Shown in pieces: positions 2,549 to 62,313 of a DNA stretch of 64,000 nt (positions are counted from its first letter, which is position 1; every line of letters begins with the position of its first letter). The DNA comes from Tubulanus polymorphus (Eukaryota; Nemertea; Palaeonemertea; Tubulaniformes; Tubulanidae): assembly GCF_964204645.1 (NCBI RefSeq), contig NC_134035.1, forward strand, positions 10,726,501-10,790,500. Reading direction: 5' to 3'. Made by a program: the position numbers and the translations under genes. The notes under the pieces were generated by a model that saw only the letters and a list, made by a program, of their open reading frames with translations, was not told where the DNA came from and did not search any database.

Positions 2549-3192
2549 CGTATAATAGCAGACTGATTGAAACGATAAGATTTTATCATGATACGTACGT
2601 CTAGTTTATTATCAAATAAAAAGTATTTAGAACTACAATGACGTGATCTATCTTATTAAAGAATATGGATTAATAAGTGTCTTTTGCATCCTACAGTTTT
2701 ATTTACAAATCATATAATGGTCGCTGATAACGGCCACAAACGCATTTCAAATTCGGAAGAAAATGCGGTTCAAAAGAAAATTTGAAAGAAAATTTTTCAG
2801 CACTCACATCTTCTATGTCCTGAAAACAACTTGAAGGATTCGAAAGCATTTTTCAGTTGTTTAGAGGGCCTGAAACTTGTATTCAGTGCGTCCTGAAAAC
2901 AGCTTTTTCAAGACCTTCTGAAATCAACTTCTAGGCCCTGAAAAGAACTTTAGTTGTCTTCAGCACCTCTGAAAACAATGGCCCAAACAAGACTTGTAAT
3001 CGTGCGCTTACTTGGAATGTCATTGTATCTTGGGGTTGTAATCACTAATAATTTCATTTCAGGTTAAAGTTGTTTCCTTGACTAACAAATTGTTTTGTGG
3101 ACCAGAAAATCTTATTACAACAACCAACATTATTCTTCAAATCAATTTGAGATTTTGTGGCCCAAATTAGCCACCATATCGACCGATAACGT

Positions 3193-6100
3193 TTAGTAGA
3201 TCAAAAACGATAAATCAAAAACTACAACGACAAATAAGAAAATTACGAACAACAGTCTTTCCAGAACGATATTAGCCGTATCGTAAAACGTGTCGTGCAA
3301 TGTACTGGTGGGTGTCGTGGTCGGTGAACTGCTGGAGATTTCGCGGTCTTCGCCCAACTGATCGTCATCGTCCGCGCCGTCCGGAGCTAAACGACGAACT
3401 CGAATATCTGCCGTATCACGCCTGACCAACAACAACTTCTCCAAACACTCGGTAACCTATTTCAAAAAAGTACTATGAAAAACAACAACTACCTACACAT
3501 TTATAGAGTTTATTGCGAATTAAAAGGCGGGCGTAGGTCGGCTTTACGACTGCAAGCTACTCGTAATCGACCGACGCACCCTCACGACCATTACGAACAC
3601 CAGCGATACCTTGTGCACTGCCATCATATTATACTTTCCGCGATGTTTGCGGCCGTCTTTCTGAGTCGCAACATATTCTCCTTTTGTAACTGAAGCCCAA
3701 CGCACCCGACGCACGGAAACACGGAAGAATTCTTTCCCGAAACAATGTTACCCGCGTTTCTCGTAGACGCACACGACTCCGGAAAACGCACGGAAACATT
3801 ATGTCTGTCTCCAGCTCCAGTGTTTCCCTGCGTCGTGTGCGTTGGGCTCGACAGCTGACGAACACGTCACAGTCGACCTACGCACCCGTATCGCGATGCA
3901 GCTTAGAAATAAAAAGAAGTTCATTACCTGCTGAAAAGATCTTGGCGGTGGCGATGTAAAGCTGATCCGCGCTGCCGATGACGTCAGGTGAGCAATCAAA
4001 TAAGCAATCACAGTCAGCAACATCGAAGATACATAGTAAACATCTAGAATTAAACATCATTTTATTTACTTGAAAACCACGAATGTAGACTATAAATTTT
4101 CTGACTGACACATCATCACTTTACGTCGTCACAATTAGTAGAAGATATGAATGAATTCGAAGTGTCCAAAAACATCTTCATGAAAAAAAATATATGTATA
4201 AAATCTTAGAGGTGTTCGTGGAGCCTCGTTCGCCTTGGCTTTCTACGTTGATCAATAAATGACACGATAAGCATAAACTCGATTTAGAAAAAGGTCTCAT
4301 ACGACAGTCCGATAATCACAGTCAAATCTAATTCAGCCTCGTAGTTAGGAGGATCGTTATGTCGATGATATAATGATGACTCATACTGCATTTAATATTT
4401 CCTTTGAAATGGTGTATTAATTAAGTTAATCAAGCAAGGGACTGCAGAGCTATTTGATATTCAATCAATACTTATGTTTTAAAAATGAGCGAAAATTATC
4501 GCAACAATGGGGACCTCGAGGGACCACCACAAAATGGCGCCTAGAAACTTTTTTATCAGTAAATTGGAAATACTACTTCGGACACACAGACCGGCTTCAA
4601 TGATGCGACAACTCATCCCATGACGTGGGAGTTGAGACTGCACTCACGTATAATCGGAGGTTCACCAGTCGCTGTTAGTTCTTTGTCCGCCCACCATCGA
4701 GTATCACGAGGAAACGACTTCATGCTCATCATAAACAGGAACAGGTAAATGAGTATCATTCCGACAACTGTAACATGAACAGGTAAATGAGTATCATTCC
4801 AACAACTGTAACAGGAACAGGTAAATGAGTAGCATTCCAACAACTGTAACATGAACAGGTAAATGAGTATCATTCCAACAACTGTAACAGGAACAGGTAA
4901 ATGAGTATCATTCCAACAACTGTAACAGGAACAGGTAAATGAGTATCATTCCAACATCTGTAACAGGAACAGGTAAATGAGTATCATTCCAACAACTGTA
5001 ACAGGAACAGGTAAATGAGTATCATTCCAACAACTGTAACAGGAACAGGTAAATGAGTATCATTCCAACAACTGTAACAGGAACAGGTAAATGAGTATCA
5101 TTCCAACAACTGTAACAGGAACAGGTAAATGAGTATCATTCCAACAACTGTAACAGGAACAGGTAAATGAGTATCATTCCAACAACTGTAACAGGAACAG
5201 GTAAATGAGTATCATTCCAACAACTGTAACAGGAACAGGTAAATGAGTATCATTCCAACAACTGTAACAGGAACAGGTAAATGAGTATCATTCCAACATC
5301 TGTAACAGGAACAGGTAAATGAGTATCATTCCAACAACTGTAACAGGAACAGGTAAATGAGTATCATTCCAACAACTGTAACAGGAACAGGTAAATGAGT
5401 ATCATTCCAACAACTGTAACAGGAACAGGTAAATGAGTATCATTCCAACAACTGTAACAGGAACAGGTAAATGAGTATCATTCCAACAACTGTAACAGGA
5501 ACAGGTAAATGAGTATCATTCCAACAACTGTAACATGAACAGGTAAATGAGTATCATTCCAACAACTGTAACAGGAACAGGTAAATGAGTATCATTCCAA
5601 CAACTGTAACAGGAACAGGTAAATGAGTATCATTCCAACAACTGTAACGAATCATACACAATCAACAATATCAATTATTCGCCATAGTCGAATTTTTCTT
5701 CTGGATGAATTTGAGCGTGTATGTGATTGTGTGATTGTAGCAAAGTGTGTTGAGGTGACCCTTTTTACAAGCATTTTGTTTCGATTATTATTATACGATC
5801 ATAACAGAATATTCAATCCATCGTCAACATCTGATATCTAAATAAATGCTAATGATCATTTTGATTTGTTATACGTGATGACAAACAACGATACGTTAAT
5901 TTCATAAGAATGTTGCATTTAATCGATTAAAATCGCTCCTTAATCTTCCAAAAATCTTAATATTAATGCCAGAATTAGGTCGCCTCTGACCCAAACTCAT
6001 CTCGGCGGTATCCTCCCTCGGCAGCCGTGGTTGATGCCATCAGGTTCGAATCCTTGCCGAGGAAGGATGTTCGGTGGGCGACAAACAAACTCTCGGGCAA

Positions 6101-6408
6101 GTGAGGATGATACCTGTTATGTGACGAGCTGCAACACCGCGGCCACGAAATAGAAAAAGCATCGGAATCATGAGATTCAGGCAGATCGCGGGCGCCACGA
6201 ATACAAGAACTCCTCGCAGAAGAGATCTGCGTACGGTGAACTGGTACACGATTGTCTCGGTCGTTTCACGGGTTTGCGTTGTTCGATTTCGCACCAGACG
6301 TTTGCCTTTTTCCAACAACCAGATGTCGGACGTTTTCTGAGGCAATTCTGGATACCGGGTGGCTATGATTCGCCAGGGTGACGCGTCCGACACGGCGTGT
6401 ACGTTGTA
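3193..6408 (-). CDS. Exons 8-11: pre-M1 region and M1-M4 of the channel
   Basis: Exons 6114-6408, 4648-4767, 3928-4043 and 3193-3456 cover residues 478-741. Loop C (about 503-528) has no vicinal Cys pair, so this is not an alpha-type nicotinic subunit. M1 follows TIVYQFTVRRSLLRG. M2 begins RHITVVGMILIY. Counting Ile574 as 1', position 9' is Ile582, 19' is Lys592, and there is no Glu at -1' (Arg, then His at 0'). That differs from the usual cation-channel pattern, so charge selectivity is open. M3 is VYYVSSMLLTVIAYLI. The M3-M4 loop is short (about 80 residues) with an acidic run at about 683-686 and a Ser/Thr stretch. M4 is the extreme C-terminus, ending at TAA 3195-3193. Confidence 0.85.
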
Positions 6409-9400
6409 CTGAATTAGAAAATAGAAGATTTTTTCACTCATTTAGATTCACAAACATATCAAAAATCTCTTCATCGGTAATTCAAAGCTTATCCGTTAAA
6501 ATCACTGTCAATCAGAGGCCTGAAATATGCGACTGTACAAAAAGTCGTTTCTAGAAATAGACAAAGTAAAAATGAGCGTATGTAATGCTTGTATATGTTG
6601 GCGTACTACTTTGGCATTTCGGGGACGTAGTTGGGATTGTGACGTTGATACCGATTTAGCTAACTTGGAAAAACCCAGGAAACTTTTAACTGAGAAAACT
6701 AGTTCATTTTGACTTAGCTAACTCTGAATAATCCTCAGAATTGAGGAAATATTTATTCCGAATTAAGAAACTTTGAATTTCGAAGATGAGTCACATTTAG
6801 AAATGATTCACTAGTTTTATTTCGAGTATCTAACTCTGTATAGACGTCAACGTTTCTTCTTACGAAAACGACCGATGCAGGACGCTTCCGTATAATCATT
6901 CGAAATAGTTCACAAACGATAGAAACCTATACCTTTTGTTTAACGAGGTTATCGTCGATCTCGACTGCTAGTTCACATTTGTGTACATCGAATGGAAATC
7001 GGTACTTGCTGATAGCGCAGTATATCGAATTCTGTAGCCAGTTGTTGAAACGAACGACGCCGGACCGATCTACATGCGCGTACGAGTTCCCATAGCCGTA
7101 CAGACTCGGTAGCCAGGAAAATCTATAACAAAGAAAAATGCAAAAGTATGATATGATATGATTAATTTTCAAGTAAGATTTCTACAAAAAAAATTAATGA
7201 ATAAGGAAATGCATTAAACGTGTATAATATTAAATGAGTTCCTGCTTTGAAGCAACATTTAGCTTATACAAGAAAGCAGCCCATGAAAGAGGACAAAATA
7301 TACACGAGATGGAAATAAACGAAAGAAAACCGACATAATACGGATATGATAACGACATACATGTACATAACAAATACACATACATCATACATATACATAC
7401 ATATACACATACAACCATACTTATACTTATAAATGTTTTTAAGTGATATTTCTTTATGATGCGTATTCACTATATATAGTAACTTGCATCCAATCCACGT
7501 GCAGTTGTAAATAGTCATGATTGGTTCATTTTTTATGTTTCCCCCAGTCGAAATACAGCTGAATCTGATTTTCTGGTTCGTATTTGAGGAGTCTTACTCA
7601 CCCGTGTACTATCTGAAATTTGGGTTTCCAGATTTTTCCGATGGACAGCGAAACGGAGTCGATGGAGCCATACTTTTTTGGGTCCCACGAGAGTCTCGAA
7701 TCTTTCCACACCTATTCGTACATGAAAATCGTACCCGCACGAATGAATATGCGTTTTAGATATTTCAGCAGAAATGAAATGAGATGATGTTTCATTTGCT
7801 TGAACTTACTATCTCTACTTGACCTCTAGGCCAGACTAGACTGTAAGCAGGATTCTGGAATTCAGTACAATTTTCATAAGACACTCATTTAATCATATTT
7901 ATCAGACTCTTATACTTTCAATTGAATCGCTCTTAATGTTTCGTTTTTGGTACGATACGTTAGGATATGATATCTGTTTTCTCCTATATCCAACTTAATA
8001 CAAAACAAAAAGTCTTAACAGAATCATGGAGGGGACCACAGAGGAGCCTGGAGGCTGTAATCTATGGGACATAGACCTCTGTGAGAACAAATAAAACAAT
8101 GACAAAAAGAAAAAACAAACTGACTTATGATAAATGAACAAATGAGTCAAGAGGTTGTGAAGTGAAAAATAAATAAAAGGAAAAGGTAGCACAAGACTGA
8201 ATTATTTCAATACTTTAATACATCGATGTACTATCAATTCAAATGGTAGCATAACGTATTATTTTTCAGAAGTAAGCATTATCATTTTTTTATACATAAG
8301 AAACTCGATAGCTGTTCTCGGTGAAATGCCTTACTTACCACTGCCGCTATGGCCGCAATATCGATGCCCATTTTGATAGTGATTTTCTTGCCGAGGGGTT
8401 TATTCGGTTTAACGCCGATAGCTGGTCGTATGTTGGTCTCGTAGTCTTTCATTAGATCCGTAATCAAACGATGTTTATCGTTGTAAAACTTTTTTTCTAA
8501 AGCACACAAGCGAAGAGTGCTAGAAGCATTTAGTACGTTCCAAAAAGAATAATGAAGCGCGTCGATTAGATCAATCCAACTTAAGATTATTTTCTAATAG
8601 GGTAGGTGTGAGGAAAATATGGGAGGGTAAGTTTTTTTTGTTTTGTTGGAACTGAACGGGGGTCTAGTAGCCCTCTCCGGAAAAAAATGATGCTCAGATA
8701 TGGTTTTGATTCCCGTTGATATAACGAAGGTCTAAATAAATGAACAAAATCTTATATATATATACTTGTATTAGATCGAGAAAGTTGTAAGAGGAAAACG
8801 TTTCTGTTTGATAATCTTTTAAAATAAAAAAAAACTATCGGAACTACGGTCCCGCATAGCTACAATACTACCCGAGTAACTTTCATGTACTTAAAAAATG
8901 TATGCGGAATTTTCTTACAACATTAAACATTTTCTGGAAGACCGTCTGTCATGGGGTGAAGATTATATAATTCTAAAAAGTAAATATAGCTGCAAAGCAG
9001 CAATAATGGGTTTTTACTGGATAGCAGCATCACAAATATGCATATCTTTGGAAATTAAAAATTGAAATGTAAAAGAATGTTTATCGTCGGGGATTCGAAC
9101 TTAATATGACTGATATAACTACGTCGTCAATGTAGTACATCACCTCAAATATATTGAACTTACAAATTACTTTCGATACGACAACGTGCGAACAAGCACT
9201 ATGAGACTTTAAAAAAAACGGTTACTTAAATTGACCATATATAATAATTAATATAAGATCAACGTCTGCAACAATTGGAAAGTCTTACGGGTTGCTGGGT
9301 TTGTTGTTGGTTCTGTTGTTTTCTGTGTAGGTGAAACTGTAGAACTTGGTTCCGTTGTAGTCTGTATAGACGGCGCTGACGTAGTTCTTGCCTTCGCGGC

Positions 9401-11451
9401 GACGTCTGGATAAAACAGTTTATGGTCTATTACCGAAACAACCGTCGAGCCGAGTGTCTATTGTTTTACTAAAGTTGAAATCGATTACACCTACCCGAAC
9501 ATAATGGTACGTTACAGTATTCCCAGCGTTTACCGGGATTCAGAGTATAACACCACGGTCCTTCAGGTTCATTATCCGGGTTCCTACAGTAATTCTCCGC
9601 TGTTGTCTTATCGTCCAGCTTCGAATATAACCTGTGTTTATGCGGTGTTTGTCTATCCCAGCGCTGACATTTCCAACCGCTTCGTGTTTCGCTCGTTTCG
9701 CCGCGATATTCAGCGCCTTTTTTACTGGTTTTACATTCACAGAACTCTATATCGCAGTACTCCCAGCGTTTACCGGGATTCAGAGTATAACACCACGGTC
9801 CGTCCGGTTCATTATCCGGGTTCCTGCAGTAATTCTCCGCTGTTGTCTTATCGACCAGCATCGAATATGCACTGTGATTATGCGGTGTTTGACTATCCCA
9901 GCGCTGACATTTCAAACCGCTTCGAGTCGTATTCGCTATGCCTTGATAATCGCGACCTGTCCGTGTAGTTTTACATTCAGGAGCCATCCCCGGACAGAAC
10001 CTTATATTACAGTACTCCCAGCGTGTATCGGGGTCCATCGTATAACACCAGGGTCCTAAAGGTTCATCATCAGGATTCCTGCAGTAATTGGAAGCTGTGC
10101 CCTGGTCGGAGAGCATATCGTAGCGGGTATGTTTATGAGGTGATTGAGAATTCCAGGCTTGACACTTTTTACCAGATTTTGTTTGGCCCAAACGTCCTCT
10201 GTATTCTTTACCGGTTGTGGTAGTTTTACAAGTTTCACCTGATTAAAGTAAATGTATTATCTCTATAATCTGATTCTTTGAACTGCGAAGCAGCGATCAT
10301 GGGTTTTCTGCCAATAATCGATCATTAAATTCTTCATTTTATTTTAGAAATAAATCGATGCGTAAACTATTTTATCGTTCTGGACACTGATAACAACTTT
10401 GACGTACAGTAATTGAACTGGCTAACACAACGAAAAATATTTCGAAAACTACGGTCGATCCAGAGTCTGACATTCTAAGACGTTTCCACGAAGCCATATC
10501 GCAGCGAAAACTGTCGATATGCTTTATGCTTTGATAAGAATGCTGACGAACAGTGACCTACCGGCTCTAATACAAAACAGTTTCTACTCATTCTGCCTTA
10601 ACTATTGACTATAAAATGATACTCGGGCTTTAATCCACATTCAAACCTCTTAGGAACAATATGTTCTTACGAGCAACGTTATACAACAAGAAACTTTCCA
10701 AGCCTATACATATCATTCAAAAGCCTTTAAAACCTATGCAAATGAATTTTAGACCCTCTGGGGGACGAACCGAGGAGTGAATCAAAATCAAGACACTCGG
10801 AATCTGTGGATATTGGGGTTAAAATCCTAGTAAATTCGGTAGATTTCCAAGAGCCATTGGCTTTAATTAACTTTTGGCGATTATCTGCTTCGAAAGGGGA
10901 CGGAAAATGATGATTATATTAGTCCGGAGAAAAGCAATAGGGTTTTTGTTAAAAGTATATAGCCCATTTTAAAGTGTCTATTCTAAGACAATATGTCAGT
11001 CACGATAGACTCTGAAGCCTGTATGCGAAAGAAAGGGAAAATACAAAAGATCGGTACCAAAATGAGTTCCGGGCTCGCTGTGGTTGCTGGGTTTCTTGCA
11101 ACGTTGATGGAATAGGAATCTGATTATATTGGTGTACGCTAAGCGCAAATCAATGACATAACTCCAAACATCGCCAATTCTAAACTGGCTTGAAGATGGG
11201 GTTGTGCGGCTCCAGTCGCTTCATATTGAAAGAAAGCAGGTTCACTTACTTGAAATTTAAGCCGAAAGCGGGGATTCAAAATTAACTATATTTTCCGTTT
11301 TCTTCGCATCCAGACGTTTTTAACCCCGCACAGAGCGCGTTGATGGCATCAAGTCTTTTCATCACAAACAACCTGTCAACTTACCTTCATCCTTGTCACA
11401 TAAAGCATTAGTCAACAGCAACGTAAATGTAAACAGACATTGCAAAATCAT
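3193..11451 (-). CDS. Kringle-domain Cys-loop ligand-gated ion channel subunit (complete, 11 exons)
   Basis: Exons in order of transcription: 11385-11451, 9495-10238, 9289-9405, 8339-8496, 7810-7854, 7602-7711, 6933-7122, 6114-6408, 4648-4767, 3928-4043, 3193-3456. Every junction is GT-AG and phase-matched, and the sum is 2226 nt: 741 codons plus TAA. The protein reads: signal peptide (1 to about 18); kringles at 26-104, 111-189 and 191-269; Thr/Ser/Pro stalk 271-309; extracellular ligand-binding domain about 310-540; M1 about 542-564; M2 about 574-594; M3 about 617-639; M4 about 720-741. It should be a plasma-membrane subunit of a pentameric channel with an added kringle ectodomain. The nearest channel relatives by exon layout are nicotinic, 5-HT3 and ZAC subunits. 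The agonist is unknown. The link between kringle and channel parts rests on intron phase, a single signal-peptide exon, and no alternative start or poly(A) signal between them. A transcript has not been seen. Confidence 0.82.
4736..5647. repeat. 38-bp minisatellite, about 24 copies, derived from the M2 exon boundary
   Basis: Near-identical 38-bp units (plus strand starting aacaggtaaatgagtatcat) run head to tail. Rare variants include aacatctg, aacatgaac and agcattcc. On the minus strand each unit reads as intron 3' end plus exon: pyrimidine-rich CATTTACCTGTTCCTGTTACAG-type acceptor, then TTGTTGGAATGATACTC, which encodes the start of M2. The unit at the low-coordinate edge is the real M2 exon start (acceptor AG at 4768-4769). 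The array therefore arose by amplifying the gene's own splice boundary into intron 8. Confidence 0.95.
5648..6002. other. Intron 8 remainder
   Basis: AT-rich intronic sequence between the minisatellite and the SINE piece. The open frame at 5623-5841 starts inside the repeat and shows no protein feature. Nothing else is seen. Confidence 0.5.
6003..6070 (+). mobile_element. tRNA-derived SINE fragment in intron 8
   Basis: Contains GCCATCAGGTTCGAATCC, with a pol III B box (GGTTCGAATCC), followed by TGCCGAGGAAGGATG. It shares this block with the two copies at 12.0 and 12.3 kb. It is only a short piece, in the intron just downstream (minus sense) of exon 8. Confidence 0.55.
6933..8496 (-). CDS. 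Exons 4-7: ligand-binding domain of the channel
   Basis: Exons 8339-8496, 7810-7854, 7602-7711 and 6933-7122 cover residues 310-477. The first has RLITDLMKDYETNIRP, the N-terminal helix signature of Cys-loop receptors. The second is a 45-nt micro-exon and the third is 110 nt, the same sizes and phases as exons 3 and 4 of vertebrate nicotinic and 5-HT3 genes. They give VWKDSRLSWDPKKYG (loop D Trp379) and IWKP. The last has the Cys-loop C449-C463, CAISKYRFPFDVHKC, with canonical 13-residue spacing and FPFD. Departures: loop A has His413 where nicotinic receptors have Tyr, and there is no loop B Trp after the Cys-loop. Canonical acetylcholine binding is therefore unlikely. Confidence 0.88.
7335..7432. 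repeat. (ACAT)-rich imperfect microsatellite
   Basis: Degenerate runs of ACATAC/ATAC lie within the intron between exons 6 and 7. The apparent frames across it are low-complexity artefacts. Confidence 0.5.
9289..9405 (-). CDS. Exon 3: Thr/Ser/Pro-rich stalk
   Basis: A 117-nt exon, phase 1 to phase 1, lies between acceptor TTTTATCCAG and donor CCC|GTAAGA. It encodes residues 271-309, rich in Thr, Ser and Pro, with TTTEPSS and TTEPTTNP. This is the composition of a mucin-like O-glycosylated spacer. Its phase-1 donor matches the phase-1 acceptor of the first channel exon, which corresponds to the ancestral exon 1/exon 2 boundary of nicotinic receptor genes. Confidence 0.75.
9495..10238 (-). CDS. 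Exon 2: three kringle domains
   Basis: One 744-nt exon (phase 1 at both ends) encodes three kringles of 79 residues, each with the six canonical cysteines: 26/48/75/87/99/104, 111/133/160/172/184/189 and 191/213/240/252/264/269. All carry NYCRNPD, GPWCYT and RWEYC. The plasminogen-type lysine-binding positions look kept: an acidic pair (PDDE in K1, PDNE in K2 and K3), Trp in GPWC, and Arg-Trp before the fifth Cys. Ligand binding is therefore plausible but inferred. K2 and K3 abut with one residue between them and are almost identical at DNA level, indicating recent duplication; K1 is more diverged. Possible N-glycosylation sites are at N125 and N143. No protease domain follows. Confidence 0.93.
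10239..11384 (-). other. Intron 1 of the kringle channel gene
   Basis: It runs from donor GTAAGT at 11384 to acceptor TTTAATCAG ending at 10239. It contains no other exon I can support. Confidence 0.6.
11385..11451 (-). CDS. Exon 1: signal peptide of the kringle channel
   Basis: ATG at 11451-11449 opens 22 codons beginning MILQCLFTFTLLLTNALCDK, a classic signal peptide with a hydrophobic core at residues 2-13 and likely cleavage near residue 18. The donor GAAG|GTAAGT leaves phase 1. This matches the phase-1 acceptor at 10239-10240, joining as Gly23. No other signal-peptide exon ending in phase 1 was found between here and the channel exons. Confidence 0.75.
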
Positions 11452-32700: not shown

Positions 32701-33591
32701 AACTTCATCTTTTACCAATACTTTTGTTTCAGATCTAAGGACTTAAGTCCTTGTCAAGAATAACAACTATCCATTAACGAGGTTTTTATAAGTAAAATAT
32801 CAAGCGACGTCTCTGTGGAGATAGATCCACAGATAGATAGACTCGCAGAAATGCAGGTGGATGAAACATTAGTTCACGCAAACCGACAACACATCTTTTC
32901 AGTAGTACTTACCGAGAGAACAATAAACGACGCGTTAGTACTTAGTGATTTCATATAATCGGAGGTTCATGCACCGGGCATGGCGTACACTGATTTTTGC
33001 TAGTGCGATTCAAGACACACGGGTCTTATCTTTGATGTAAGGTGTTGCATTATACAATGACCTTCAACTTTGTTTCATCATAATTCAAGTTTACCATTTT
33101 GATAATCGACCATTCCCGCGCTCGAGGGACTTTTGCGAACGAGTCTATAAAGCCAACGGAATCTCATCTATATTGTTTAAGGTTTGCTTTGGAAGAATGG
33201 AAAAGAAGAAGCAGCCACTGGCGGACGTTGCCTTTCCGGGCCCAGGGGAGTCGAGCTCAGTTTGTACTGGTATATTCTATTTGTTGGAAGAACGGGGTCC
33301 GATGTCGAGTCTTTGTGTCGGTTGCTTCACCGAAAATCAAAAGCTTTTTATAGAAAAGGAAAGACGATATATCGTAAATCAGTCGTCAACGACATTCATT
33401 GGCAAGTTATCGTAGATATCATCTATCCGATATTTGCCGTAAGAGATACATTTCATCTAATTGTGGAATTCACCAGTTCGCCTTAGTGTGTTCGCATAAC
33501 CACCTGAGGGTCGCAATTCAATGGAGTAATAAATGTACGCTAACAAGTAAGACACTTCTTTCGAATGTAAACTGATACGTAGATGAGGTAT

Positions 33592-33951
33592 GAGGGAGGG
33601 AGGGAGGGATAGAGGGAGAGAGGGAGAGAGGGAGAGAGGGAGAGAGGGAGAGAGGGAGAGAGGGAGAGAGGGAGAGAGGGAGAGAGGGAGAGAGGGAGAG
33701 AGAGGGAGAGGGGGAGAGGGGGAGAGGGGGAGAGAGGGAGAGAGGGAGAGAGGGAGAGAGGGAGAGAGGGGGAGAGGGAGAGAGGGAGAGAGGGAGAGAG
33801 GGAGAGAGGGAGAGAGGGAGAGAGGGAGAGAGGGAGAGAGGGAGAGAGGGAGAGAGGGAGAGAGGGAGAGAGGGAGAGAGGGAGAGAGGGAGAGAGGGAG
33901 AGAGGGAGAGAGGGAGAGAGGGAGAGAGGGAGAGAGGGAGAGAGGGAGAGA
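33592..33951 (+). repeat. (GGGAGAGA)n microsatellite, about 360 bp
   Basis: Same unit as the array at 17871-18028 with a few GGGGAGAG variants. It is purine-only. The Arg-Glu-Gly frame is an artefact. Confidence 0.95.
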
Positions 33952-36300
33952 TTAGCCCTGTCTCGATGCGAGGACTCTAATTATTTAATGAGATGGACTT
34001 TATCTACTACATCTGTTATCTCCCTACCAGGTTATCTATGCGTCCTCAGCTATTATGGTTACTTTCAGATTGATGATCTGAACACATCTAGATACAGTTG
34101 GATACATCAGGTAAAGCGTATCGACTGTATCGATGCAGTTTCACTAACCGCTGATAAACATTTTGTAAATGAAACGGGCGCTATACAAACTAACAGATTT
34201 TTGATATTATCATTATTATCACTACATAAGGATCATTAGGAAACGGATACTTCCACATTTAAGATATATGTATGAAATAAAGATAACTCCACAATATTAG
34301 CGAAAAAAAGTCTGAAAATGTTACCTCGAGGTAGTAGTTTATTCGATGTTTCGACTTTATTCTAAAAGTCTAAGGACTACTGAGTAACGTAAAACAGAAA
34401 TTATGAAATATATATAATCTCCTCGTTATTACTGTGGGATCCTCTTTTAATTCGAAAAATTCCCTTTAAATGTATATCGTCACAGAGCGGTTTTACTGTC
34501 TTATTAATGGTAATATATGTATAAACATTTGATGAAATATGTAAGGTTGATTATTAAAACATTCGGTGATGATACAGAAATGGCCAGATACGAGAGCAAT
34601 AGATGCAGAATAAAATCTAATTTCCAATTTACAGGGGGATTTTGTCAAATCGCCTTTAAACAGATTGATGAGAGTTTTGTACAACGAATATGAATTGAAC
34701 AATCTACTGGGACTGAAGCGAAGACGTCATCGGTTGGTGGTGGGTGTATCTACACGCCGATAAACGCGCGGTGATGTAATCTGGTGGCTGAATTCAGTGA
34801 TAAACGCGTTTAAGCTTTAATTTCCTGTAACGTTAAAGCGATAACGATCGCGCGAACGGTTTTAAATTATAAATCATTCGATTCGATATCAACGCGTCCA
34901 ATCACATCCGGACGAAGCGGCGACGATAACGAACGCTATTTGCGCAACAAATCTGATTCCGTCGCCCTATACACTCCGGTCATGCCGTCACTATCACAAG
35001 CAACGTAATAGAGCCGAAATAGGTAGCCGTTCAAATAACCTAATAAGCATATGGTTATATGGGATGTTTATACCTGATGTGTATTAAGAGTGGTTGATCA
35101 TTTCGGCCTAATTCCCTTTTTCTTCATAGAAAAACACATTTTCGGCATCAGGGAAATTCATAGCAGTAAAATAAGTCCTTTAAAACGCCACCGTTGGGAC
35201 TGAAATAATGGCGTTATACCGAATTTGGCATTATATAGAATATATTTTCATTGAATTCGAGTAGGATTGAGCAAATTTGCGCTCCGAAAATGTTGGCGCT
35301 ACTGAGCAGCGGCCGGATGGCGTACCAACGGGCTTTGACTGTATTCAAATTCGAGTCAACTTCATCGATCCTCAATTCCATACATCATATAATTCATTGT
35401 CGATGGTATTAAGCGGTTTAAATTTGTTATCTACTTTTCAAGCCTCGATGAAAATTGAAGTTAGTTTTCAATTCGGAAATGGATTATTTTGTATCAGATC
35501 GCCTCTCGCCGACATCTAAAAGGACGCGGCGTATAACGCGTGCGTGGACCGCTGTCGGTGGTAACACTTCCAGAGCAAACAACAAATTACCACTGACTGC
35601 GTTAATATGATAAACGAAAGAAATGCCACTATACGCGCAAATGCGATTGTCAGGATCGACGGTAACCAGTTCTGTAAATATATCCACGACGAATAACGCG
35701 AACAGCGAGAGAGTCCGCGCTGGCGGGTTCATAATCAAATTATCTACACGCTCTTTGTCTCTCGTCCTTGCGCGGACTTTTTAGCTGAAACGTATAATAC
35801 GGCGTTGATAGGAACCTTGCCAGCGATGATGCCGCGGCTAGGTTTTTGCGGCCAATTAGCGTTGAAACTGCGACGCACGTTGTCTTCGAGGCGTCGACGA
35901 CGGATCGTGGTGTATTAGTCGCCGGTCCTTCCTCTCCGGCTGCTAACGGTATTTATTTCCCCTCATCGTCGGTCGCCCGTACATGATTGATTATCGCGTG
36001 TCGTCGTTCTTCGCGATCTCGTCGCGTCGAGAAAAAAAATCGCGGCGAAAAAAAAACCGAACGACAGGCTATCGGTTAATTTCCTGGCGAGATTTCGATC
36101 ACCTCCGGCAGAGAGGTGAAATATATACGCGTGGATGTCATCGGCCCCCACGCATACAATGGCTCCGCGTAGACTGATGTCGAAGGCGTCTTGGCGGTCA
36201 TTTTTAATGGAAAAATATCGATCTAAATATTGTTGATAGGACTGTAATTCTATATTCAATTCTATTTACAATAAGAAGTAGAAGGTTATAGTATTAGCGC
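33952..36300. other. Gene-poor stretch
   Basis: No supported gene. Several CG-containing patches at 34730-34990 and 35770-36180 show no exon with recognisable protein. Confidence 0.35.
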
Positions 36301-52443: not shown

Positions 52444-53424
52444 TCATCCTATATCTGTTAACTAACTCGTTGAAGTGGGAATCGGTTATTATGGGTTTTT
52501 CTGTGACAACGAATGATATTTGTTTCTATTCCGCGACTAATGCGGTTTTTAAGTCTATACGTTAGCGCGGAGATACTTACTCTTTTGCTAAGCCGCTCGA
52601 AGCGTCTTAAAAGCGTAACGGGGGTTTAACGATTTTCATATCCTGCGGCAGTTCCTGGAAAATTTCCAGACGCTCGCGACTACAGATTCGGCGTTACACG
52701 TTTCTGCGCTTTTAGCGACAGCGACGGATTTTCCCCTCGGCGATCCGACGAGTACAAAAAACTTACCTACACGCGTCTTAGTTCTTTGAATAGAACTTGG
52801 ATATGATATAGTGAAGAGTCAGGAAATTGAAGCTTTCTTTACAAATCGTCTTGTCGAACCGCTGTTTCATTCGCCAGACCAGGCGCTAAATACTTTCTGA
52901 ATGTTATGTTGCTTCGAACATGAAAGCTACCCTTATCTTGACCTCGCCTGGTTTTGACCCTTCGTGGCCGTATTTATTTGCGTGTAATCTTTTCTCACTC
53001 AAAGCTAAGAGCATTACGAGCAAAACTTTGACTTAAACAAGAAGTGCGAAAGTAATATTTGCATCCTCGTATCCAATAACTTTTGGTCGTTTCGGCAATT
53101 TTCCAGCTTTGACAATGCTGACTACCATTACGACGTCACATGTATGACCTCTGATTCGAGGACTGGCAGAAGCTTATTTGGTTTTGTGTATAAATTCGTT
53201 TTATGCCGTCACCGAATACATCCTCGCCACTTCGTAAAAGCAAACGCTGCCAGATTGCGGTATCGCTCTTGCGTAAACAGGATTTAGAAATGTGATCGAA
53301 AGCGCCGACCGCAGAGAAGAGAAGAGAACAGCAATCCTATTCGCGCCAAGGCTTTGTGCGGCACCGTATACGCGATGATAGGATTTGGAGGATGAGAAAT
53401 ACTATACCCATGAATGGATACGGA

Positions 53425-53818
<394 letters not shown>

Positions 53819-55456
53819 ATATTTTGGCGTCCCTAAAATCACCCAAAAATATTGGCACCCGACTAAAATGTTCTGCCGGAACTCGGTGAGTCACCTCACT
53901 ATAAACCGACGAGCACTTTGGAAAAAAAGAGATCGTTTATTCGAGATACTCGTACAAACTAGTGCGACTCCGAATTGTATCTCTATAGAGGTAATTCAAA
54001 ATTGATAAGACTTAAAGCAGATTTTATCATTTCGTAAATTGTTCATTCATTTTATGTCCATCGGCTTGAATTTTATTATCTTATTATCACCTTTGTAACG
54101 TTTTAATGTAATTTGATTCGTGAATAAAGAATAATAATAAAGAAAAATAATAATATTTGTTAAATAATGATTATTAACCAAAAGACACCCATATTTTCTG
54201 TGTCTTTTGGTTTTAATTTTTGATTAATAAACTTTGGCTCGTAATAAATTCTGCAAATTGTGTGGGTTTTAAACGTATCAAGTAATATGTTCGAATTGTT
54301 GTATATGGCTGCAAGAGTTTATAGGTTTGAAATCCTCTTATCCTTTTGCGTGCACGACTTTCAGCGAGTGAAGCCGTTTTCGCTTGTTTTCTGGTATTTT
54401 TTCGTGGTTCCATTAGCACATCCTTTCGCAGTTAATAAAACTTAAAAGGTGTTAAAGAGTGCGGCGCGTTGCGATGTGAAATTGATACATCTCCCAGGGC
54501 GATGTATGGCGATTAACAATTCTCCGAATAGTGGATTTTGGTGAATCGAGTAAAAATTTGATATTTTTCGTGGTTTTGACGTATGAATAATAATACGCAG
54601 TGAAATCTAATAGTGCGCTTTATGACGAATGTGTTCAGATGTGTTTAGATCGAATTTCGATGATTTGAATTTTGCAAAACATAATATTCCCCATTTATTC
54701 AAATATTGAAAGCTAAATAAGCCTGTAGGTAACAATCGCCCTGTTAAAACTACAAAGCTCGATTTTCTATCAAACAAATGCATAAAACCTAAATGAACAT
54801 ATATCATACTTAGTAACATCTAGGAATACATGCACATACTAGATTTTTAATTATTACTTTTAAACTATAATTCAGAGAGATTTTCGAAACTAAGATGTAA
54901 TTTTTAAAGCATGTTGCTTGCTTAGTCACAAAATAATGTTATTTTAAGTCATAGCTTGGTAGGAGACACAGATTTTCCAAGGCGAATATTGTTAAAAACA
55001 TCACGGAGTATTTGAAATTTTTGAAAACTATTAAAGTTTATAGAAGTTTTATTATACAAGAATATAGCAGTATTTTGTTGAGCTTTGCTGTGAAATCAAA
55101 TTTTGGGGGATTTTTACCGAGGTGAATTTTACCTGGGGGATTTATACCTAGGGGGATTATTACCTTTTACTATTATCTACATTATCAGTCACGACCCCGT
55201 ATGTTACGTAATAACACAAATCCGAAGACGAAATGATAGAATCGCGCATTATGATTTAAAAGAGAAAGGCATTCAACCTGTATTGGCTATGGAGAGCCGC
55301 TAGAAATACGTTTTTATTTCTTTCTGATAGATTCGTGGATAAACAGCGTCTCTGCGCCGTGTGCGAACAATCCAAAGTGTTGCGACCGACGCCTCTGGCT
55401 CGAGCGAAATGAGAAACTTTGAAATGCAGCTCGATGCAAAAATGTTTTTGAGCTCT
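53819..55456. other. Gene-poor stretch
   Basis: AT-rich. ACCAAAAGACAC and GTGTCTTTTGGT form a small hairpin at 54177-54212. AATAAAGAATAATAATAAAG at about 54124 resembles a retroelement 3' tail. No gene is supported. Confidence 0.35.
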
Positions 55457-61150: not shown

Positions 61151-61244
61151 GATTCGTCATTTAACGTTTGAAGTATAAGGATTTCGAAGAGAAGGCCGTT
61201 TCGATGTCTTGATCCGAACCGTTCAATTTGACGAATCGATCGAT

Positions 61245-62313
61245 ATGTACATAGACGAGGGAAGCGATGTCGACGCCGACAGCCTTCCGAAATCGATGTA
61301 TTCGGACATGCCGACCGTAGTCAATTTCGCGAACACGTCCGAACGAACGGTCGACGTGGTTTGGCTGGATTTCAACGGACGCATGGTGTGGTACTACACG
61401 CTGGAGCCTACCGACTCGGTCGAGATGCAAACGTACGTGACACATCCGTGGGTGTTCATCGACAAGTATTCCGGCGCCAGGATGCGGGCGAATAGAAACA
61501 TGGTCTATCATCCTACACCAAACAACGGCAACGTGCCGACAGTATTGATTCACATTCCTGGTACGTAGGCCTATTAGAATACAAAAATTATACTTTTTGA
61601 AAATAATGTTAAAATTAAAAGAGATACAGTTGGAAAAGGTCTCCAAAAACCGTGCTTGGGATGAGTCATTAAAGGACGCAATTGTTGAGACAAATTTTTA
61701 TGTTTATTTCATGAAATTCACTATCAACCCCCAGATATAACGCCTCTCAAAAAGTGCTACCCTGCTTAGCACCTACGACTGAAGAGAAACCCACAATATC
61801 ACATTAATCAACTGTTATTGTTTTTTTCTCGCGTTTCGAGTGGAATCCTTCCAACAATCTCCAAAGTTACATGAATTTACATGTATAACAGTTATGGTTG
61901 TCACAAGAAAACAAAACAATTGTTTGAAATGATAGATATTCATCAAGACTGTAAATAGTCTCTAACTATGTTCAATCTGTATTCCTTCTTGAAACATATA
62001 CAAACTAACCTTCGATATAACACCATGTTCTCCTTTCCCGCCAAATTCCTAAATGAGCTATGTGGGCGGCACTTCGGAACTTGACCGTATTATGTTTACT
62101 TTCATATCTAAAAGCTAGTTATTGGCAAAAAGTTATTGGTCATCATTTTGTTATATTTCAGTGTACAAGTTAAAAGAACGGTGCTTACAGGTTGTCAGCA
62201 AGGCGCTGCACGAGCGAACAGACGCCGAAAAACTGGACATACCGACGACTCTCAAACACGACCTGCTCAACTACGCGCCTATTCAAATCGAAGCCCAAAT
62301 AAACATAGGCTAA
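61245..62313 (+). CDS. VHL: von Hippel-Lindau protein, pVHL (two exons)
   Basis: Exons 61245-61560 and 62162-62313 join as CCTG|GTACGT to TTTCAG|TGTAC, giving 155 residues. pVHL is the substrate receptor of the CRL2 (elongin B/C, cullin 2) ubiquitin ligase that destroys HIF-alpha after prolyl hydroxylation. The beta domain runs from TVVNFANTSERTVDVVWLDF to HPWVFIDKYSG. Hydroxyproline-pocket residues Tyr50, His67 and Trp69 match human Tyr98, His115 and Trp117. Ser111 is Thr63 and His110 is Gln62. The elongin C-binding helix is PVYKLKERCLQVV (105-117), with Leu109 and Cys113 matching human Leu158 and Cys162. The start is the first ATG after an in-frame TAA at 61176. The N-terminal acidic tail is short and the alpha domain ends about 20 residues earlier than human. 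Human intron 2 is kept at the same base; intron 1 is absent. Confidence 0.95.
61561..62161 (+). other. VHL intron
   Basis: A 601-bp phase-1 intron after the first base of Val106, the same codon and phase as intron 2 of human VHL (Val155). AT-rich; it holds no other feature. Confidence 0.9.

Follow-up and report, generated by a model that had tools for sequence, protein, structure and literature searches.

A predicted nicotinic-like Cys-loop subunit gene with a triple-kringle and stalk cassette in Tubulanus polymorphus

Introduction

Animal Cys-loop receptors are gated by small molecules, and most have no extracellular part other than the ligand-binding domain (LBD). Octopus chemotactile receptors derive from nicotinic acetylcholine receptors (nAChRs). 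The kringle proteins plasminogen, HGF, ROR and MuSK carry protease-like or kinase domains, and the accessory domain of the pentameric channel DeCLIC is unrelated to kringles. In lophotrochozoans, the nAChR-like family has expanded and diverged, with 33 domain combinations and a few genes bearing extra domains (e.g., dynamin and GAIN, in molluscs); the main text of that study never uses the word kringle (Jiao et al. 2019, PMC6896357). Associations of pentameric ligand-gated ion channels with other domains are described as known only at the genome level and in need of experiment (Jaiteh et al. 2016, PMC4795631).

We analysed a 64,000-nt stretch of the genome of the nemertean Tubulanus polymorphus (the window; C11:10726501-10790500, C numbers designating contigs), which holds a predicted gene in which three kringles precede a Cys-loop channel. 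Like the nAChR-like genes of Jiao et al. 2019 (PMC6896357), it would place extra domains on a diverged member of the nAChR family. Alpo4 of Alvinella pompejana (PDB 8bx5, PMC10338036; PDB match 6.4e-7) is also an orphan nACh-like Cys-loop receptor, but it retains the key aromatic residues that the window gene has lost. DeCLIC (PMC9897478) has an extra N-terminal domain, as the window gene does, and differs in being bacterial and calcium-modulated. Two octopus sensory or chemotactile receptors (PDB 8eis and 9e6b) match the LBD of the window gene at 4.9e-11 and 5.7e-11; compared by depositors' names alone, they carry no mention of a kringle. Chains of plasminogen, HGF and ROR are among the PDB matches and have kringle modules in common with the window gene; unlike plasminogen/HGF and ROR/MuSK, the window protein has no protease-like or kinase domain by Pfam.

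Word searches of the open-access literature found no paper with both Cys-loop and kringle and none joining kringle domain, Cys-loop and ligand-gated ion channel, although unpublished or annotated-only examples may exist; the co-mentions of kringle and nicotinic receptor concern, in the passages retrieved, other matters such as the neuromuscular junction. An earlier, sequence-only reading of this DNA had said that it knew of no described family with this architecture. Within those searches this holds for the kringle-channel combination, but not for extra domains in general, which have been reported in nAChR-like genes (PMC6896357). If the interpretation given below is right, the locus would offer a natural test of protein anchoring or gating of Cys-loop channels, with three kringles and a dismantled transmitter site, and a case of exon shuffling in which the recipient phases, the cassette and a sibling cassette are all readable in one genome.

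Results

Gene structure

The predicted gene has 11 exons on the minus strand, from 11451 to 3193, which splice in phase at GT-AG junctions into 741 codons plus a stop:

11385..11451, minus strand: exon 1, start codon and putative signal peptide MILQCLFTFTLLLTNALC, ending in phase 1 (splice model)
9495..10238, minus strand: exon 2, three kringle domains, 744 nt, phase 1-1 (Pfam PF00051, PDB, C9 sibling)
9406..9494, minus strand: intron 2, alignable with the C9 sibling (shuffle-tested alignment)
9289..9405, minus strand: exon 3, Thr/Ser/Pro stalk, 117 nt, phase 1-1 (model and alignment with the C9 stalk exon)
8339..8496, minus strand: exon 4, start of the LBD, 158 nt, equivalent to paralog exon 2 (model and paralogs)
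7810..7854, minus strand: exon 5, LBD, 45 nt, loop D Trp replaced (model and paralogs)
7602..7711, minus strand: exon 6, LBD, 110 nt (model and paralogs)
6933..7122, minus strand: exon 7, Cys-loop C-x13-C with FPFD (7019 to 6975), loop B Trp missing (model, alignment)
6114..6408, minus strand: exon 8, end of the LBD, TM1 and start of TM2, Ala rather than Glu/Asp at -1' (model, alignment)
4648..4767, minus strand: exon 9, most of TM2 and a TM2-TM3 loop lengthened by 11 residues, 120 nt (model, paralogs)
3928..4043, minus strand: exon 10, TM3, 116 nt (model, paralogs)
3193..3456, minus strand: exon 11, intracellular loop, TM4 and stop codon (model)
2605..2703, minus strand: two AATAAA hexamers 3' of the stop codon, first bases 2703 and 2610 (hexamer scan)

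The exon order, coordinates, GT-AG junctions, phases (1,1,1,0,0,2,0,1,1,0) and length given by the sequence-only reading were all recovered when re-derived. The donor of exon 1 (AAG/GTAAGT) agrees with 9 of 9 consensus positions, and the putative signal peptide has a hydrophobic core. The gene lies inside one 14 Mb contig of a host assembly of 267.8 Mb in 77 contigs, in which a search for COX1 (PF00115) gave no match.

In each of the 8 channel exons, a codon model trained on six relatives from the host genome (2123 codons) ranked the true frame first; once joined, these exons contain 0 internal stops in that frame vs 28 and 14 in the others. Per codon, the channel averaged 0.16, and stop-free 50-codon intron windows (1159 kept from 20000 drawn) averaged -0.14 and reached 0.23; by itself the codon score is thus weak support, since some of these windows exceed the channel mean. 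All three frames of the stalk exon are free of stops, and one of the wrong ones outscores the true frame, so that support for this exon comes from the C9 sibling described below.

The same earlier reading had also described a channel part that lacks a signal-peptide exon of its own and a kringle part that lacks a stop, a poly(A) signal or another catalytic domain. In intron 3 (9288-8497) we looked for frames opening with ATG, 12-70 codons long and carrying a phase-1 GT donor of at least 5/9, and obtained one weak frame only. This sole candidate for a separate channel first exon, at 8930, has 13 residues, a donor of 5/9 and low hydrophobicity, and was rejected. No AATAAA or ATTAAA occurs in intron 3, and three such hexamers lie in intron 1. 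Reading past the donor of the stalk exon meets a stop within a few codons, at 9248.

Domain content of the predicted protein

Our Pfam analysis of the 741 residues revealed three kringles (E 2.2e-71 for the whole protein) and Neur_chan_LBD (PF02931; 4.7e-24, 85.5 bits against a cut-off of 26), the only families above their cut-offs, with no protease-like or kinase domain among them. Neur_chan_memb (PF02932) had no match in the search of the whole protein, nor in that of the transmembrane part alone, a query with one residue wrong; on the first 366 residues of the paralog C1a it reached only 0.0024, below its cut-off. The predicted protein has four hydrophobic segments, and TM1 to TM4 align with those of the paralogs C1a and C1b.

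The kringle stretch (residues 26-269) has 18 cysteines, six per module, and keeps the signatures GPWCYT and RWEYC; its best PDB match is plasminogen (7.3e-102), with HGF next. Lysine-binding kringles have an Asp-x-Asp centre with Trp/Tyr/Arg-Trp. The centre is Asp-x-Glu in 3 of 3 kringles here, which may, by sequence, resemble a weak lysine-binding kringle. The stalk is made up of Ser, Thr and Pro at 22 of its 40 residues. For the channel part, the best PDB match is an AChR gamma subunit (4bog, 5.3e-12), and the Cys-loop, C-x13-C at residues 449-463, is present as CAISKYRFPFDVHKC with the Y/FPxD motif, a marker of Cys-loop receptors (PMC4795631).

Kringle-less paralogs and the probable insertion point

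Searching the channel part against the host genome listed 22 matches. The best of these outside the window (72% over 25 residues, E 0.0011) is at about C1:6166324-6169468 (C1a), and the next (E 0.0039) is near C1:20.05 Mb (C1b). C1a reads as 444 stop-free residues, C1b likewise reads through, and neither has kringles. Identity of the window channel is 29.8% to C1a (382 columns) and 23.5% to C1b (391 columns).

In both paralogs exon 1, with a phase-1 end, is spliced straight to exon 2; the phases are 1,0,0,2,0,1,1,0, and the lengths from exon 2 onwards in C1a (C1b) are 158 (188), 45, 110, 187 (184), 274, 87 and 116 nt. Window exons 4 to 10, of 158, 45, 110, 190, 295, 120 and 116 nt, have the same phases. 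This agreement of 8 of 8 channel phases with two paralogs free of internal stops implies that the gene structure is not due to chance. Vertebrate nAChR genes also have exons of 45 and 110 nt. These exons and the phases are common to the window gene, C1a and C1b, a nicotinic-type feature.

The kringle exon and the stalk exon are the sole additions relative to the paralogs and, since paralog exon 1 joins exon 2 in phase 1, the 744-nt and 117-nt exons occupy the site of paralog intron 1. Exon 4 shares its phase-1 start with exon 2 of the two paralogs and therefore needs a phase-1 partner exon. The earlier proposal that kringles entered by phase-1 exon shuffling between exons 1 and 2 is borne out by the two kringle-less paralogs, the identical phases and the sibling cassette; exon shuffling is strongly supported as the best reading of these sequences.

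The sibling cassette and other copies

A sibling triple-kringle exon lies at C9:16323311-16324051 (81% amino-acid identity over 247 residues); a short intron and a stalk exon come after it, both matching those of the window gene. At the DNA level, the cassettes on C9 and C11 are 15 to 18% divergent. Across an alignment of 89 columns, intron 2 and its counterpart agree at 67%, which 0 of 300 shuffles equalled. Homology of the upstream flank is marginal: the adjoining 200 bases were equalled by 3 of 300 shuffles, and windows 20 and 40 bases farther out by 1 and 2 of 300; the downstream flank showed no homology with C9 (136, 200 and 144 of 300 shuffles as good). In the 28 kb around the C9 sibling, searches for LBD and transmembrane similarity gave only matches of E 3 or worse.

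Beyond the C9 cassette, the same strand has further Thr/Pro stretches together with a C8 domain (1.6e-9) and one that is TIL-like (0.00017, slightly under its own cut-off). In this unspliced reading, the cassette and the C8 and TIL-like domains look like one predicted mosaic gene, which we take to be of the mucin/VWF kind. Since the channel's two relatives lack kringles, the mosaic gene would be the likelier source of the cassette, and copying is likelier to have run from it to the channel gene.

C7 holds partial copies of the cassette at 6.62-6.66 Mb; they lie in both orientations, and two contain stops. There (C7:6620000-6659999) they adjoin AT-rich DNA with repeated ORFs, one of which was scanned and gave no Pfam family. 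Within intron 1 of the window gene, a stretch at about 10410-10313, some 75 bases before the kringle exon, resembles DNA at C1:13473762-13473847 (83% over 86), C5:4345693-4345790 (77%) and C3:25803468-25803524 (82%), and is probably a dispersed repeat.

Across the host genome we found at least 145 LBD, 83 transmembrane and 125 kringle matches, of which 122 kringle and 144 LBD of the matches listed are outside the window. No second kringle-channel gene was seen among them: the closest kringle-LBD pair listed is 48,448 bases apart (C5; the kringle match being under its cut-off) and the next 53,723 bases (C4). With no other kringle within 48 kb of an LBD among the matches listed, the architecture rests on one locus. 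The genome search for LBDs misses diverged exons, exon 6 alone of the window gene having been listed, and 150 of 162 candidates were scored. Beside 10 kringle loci on C4, C6, C7, C10 and C12, we detected no LBD, transmembrane, stalk or signal-peptide similarity at E up to 0.1. Clusters of closely similar kringle exons occur on C4 and C6.

Selection and timing

Between the C11 and C9 cassettes, kringle dN/dS was 0.109/0.422 (NG86), 0.111/0.366 (YN00) and 0.101/0.331 (LWL85), i.e., ratios of 0.26 to 0.30 across the three methods. Using the C7 remnants as outgroup (190 codons, with 14 differences left unassigned to either lineage), 25 replacement vs 15 silent changes fell on the window lineage (ratio 0.43) and 18 vs 13 on the C9 lineage. 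At transition biases of 1, 2 and 4, binomial p was 0.010, 0.034 and 0.085 for the window lineage and 0.006, 0.018 and 0.045 for the C9 lineage. These values give moderate support to kringles kept functional under purifying selection, although part of the selection on the window lineage may predate the fusion. The channel, at 29.8% identity to C1a, is too diverged for a selection test. Set against the much deeper divergence between channel and C1a, the cassette dS near 0.4 suggests that the cassette came in after the channel itself had duplicated, provided that gene conversion did not reset the clock.

Ligand site, pore and exon 9

In the alignment with C1a and C1b, the loop A Tyr, loop B Trp and loop D Trp of the ligand site are gone, three residues being deleted along with the loop B Trp, and loop C lacks the vicinal cysteines (CC) and aromatics that mark an agonist-binding (alpha) subunit. 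Because the residues of the acetylcholine site are lost, a classical site of this kind is unlikely in the predicted subunit. At the inner mouth of TM2, G-E-K of C1a and G-D-K of C1b are replaced by A-A-R, and at the outer end E-D of the paralogs is replaced by M-K; the pore rings Glu/Asp(-1') and Asp(20') of both paralogs thus correspond to Ala and Lys. Such a pore, if it conducts, may favour anions. The TM2-TM3 loop is 11 residues longer than in the paralogs, exon 9 having 120 nt vs 87 nt in both.

Exon 9 begins in the last unit of a tandem repeat:

4734..5648, minus strand: 38-bp minisatellite, 24 copies, 98% matching (repeat scan)

Every copy contains an AG acceptor and the first bases of exon 9. 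When the acceptors were tried one by one, 22 of 24 led to an in-frame stop; the open ones are that of the model (4767) and 4881, which adds 38 residues. Much of the message could therefore be lost, and full-length protein output may be low, these acceptors being the strongest argument for it. The repeat over the exon 9 acceptor, the loss of ligand-site residues and the C9 sibling cassette are additional to what the sequence-only reading had mentioned.

Discussion

We interpret the locus, with a probability of roughly 0.6, as a nicotinic-like Cys-loop subunit that gained a two-exon kringle-stalk cassette in its first intron and that would be tethered and would not bind agonist. A triple-kringle exon and a Thr/Ser/Pro stalk exon, both phase 1-1, would have landed in intron 1 of a channel gene, coming from a set of copies in the host genome whose intact sibling sits in the apparent C8/TIL-like mosaic gene. 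The subunit would join pentamers, probably hetero-pentamers, without binding a classical agonist, and by binding a protein outside the cell or in the matrix its stalk-borne kringles might anchor, cluster or modulate the channel. Anchoring or clustering of the subunit by such a protein appears the likeliest role. As both inserted exons are phase 1-1, skipping them would yield a kringle-less subunit in frame.

Several observations would also be consistent with a gene in decay, in which a segmental duplication put the cassette into a channel that was losing function and whose product is not a working channel. The lost ligand-site residues, the enlarged TM2-TM3 loop, the undetectable PF02932, the stops from most exon 9 acceptors and the degraded C7 copies, two of them shown with stops, all point this way. 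However, 741 stop-free codons, GT-AG at every junction, the retention of all 18 kringle cysteines, the top codon score of the true frame in every channel exon and an N/S for the kringles that falls short of the neutral expectation along the window lineage (p 0.010 to 0.085) make decay unlikely. We consider it improbable that two transcription units or isoforms are involved, namely a secreted kringle-stalk protein from exons 1-3 and a channel with another first exon. The neighbourhood of the C9 sibling, with C8 and TIL-like domains and no channel sequence in the 28 kb searched, and the short readthrough of the stalk exon to the stop at 9248 would fit it, but intron 3 offered one weak first-exon candidate and no AATAAA/ATTAAA in the 9288-8497 scan, and the phase-1 start of exon 4, as in paralog exon 2, demands a phase-1 partner.

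A bolder alternative is that the kringle partner rather than a small transmitter opens or closes the pore and that anions pass. The sequence-only reading had already raised both tethering to and gating through an extracellular protein partner, which are proposals. The absence of orthosteric residues, the exchange of the acidic pore rings for Ala and Lys, and an insertion point at the beginning of the LBD, from which strain might be passed to the subunit, would favour protein gating; the very hydrophobic TM2, which may not conduct alone, and a stalk of about 40 residues, which would fit tethering better than gating, count against it, and we regard it as a rather poor prospect. A similarly doubtful proposition is a protein-gated, anion-preferring channel with reversed pore charges, in which insertion of the intact two-exon cassette swapped the transmitter site for a triple-kringle sensor. 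It is very improbable that kringle DNA and a channel gene were brought together by an error of assembly. Such an error would fit a minisatellite that makes assembly difficult, the presence of a similar cassette on C9 and the resemblance of an intron 1 stretch (about 10410-10313) to DNA on C1, C3 and C5, but the two cassettes are 15 to 18% apart in DNA with different neighbours, and the whole gene is within one 14 Mb contig.

Other features of the window

Of the 33 listed ORFs of 110 residues or more, 10 gave no match in Pfam; three further listed ORFs gave a VHL domain, a sub-threshold transposase match and no match, respectively. At 33457-33980 and 53296-53936 lie long arrays of low complexity, of a purine-rich GAGG and a TA type, with several frames open. 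The minus strand at 1-547 resembles the start of a purple-acid-phosphatase-like gene (PF16656, 9.3e-13) with an N-terminal hydrophobic stretch, and the plus strand at 61179-61568 has a frame with a VHL beta domain (PF01847, 1e-15).
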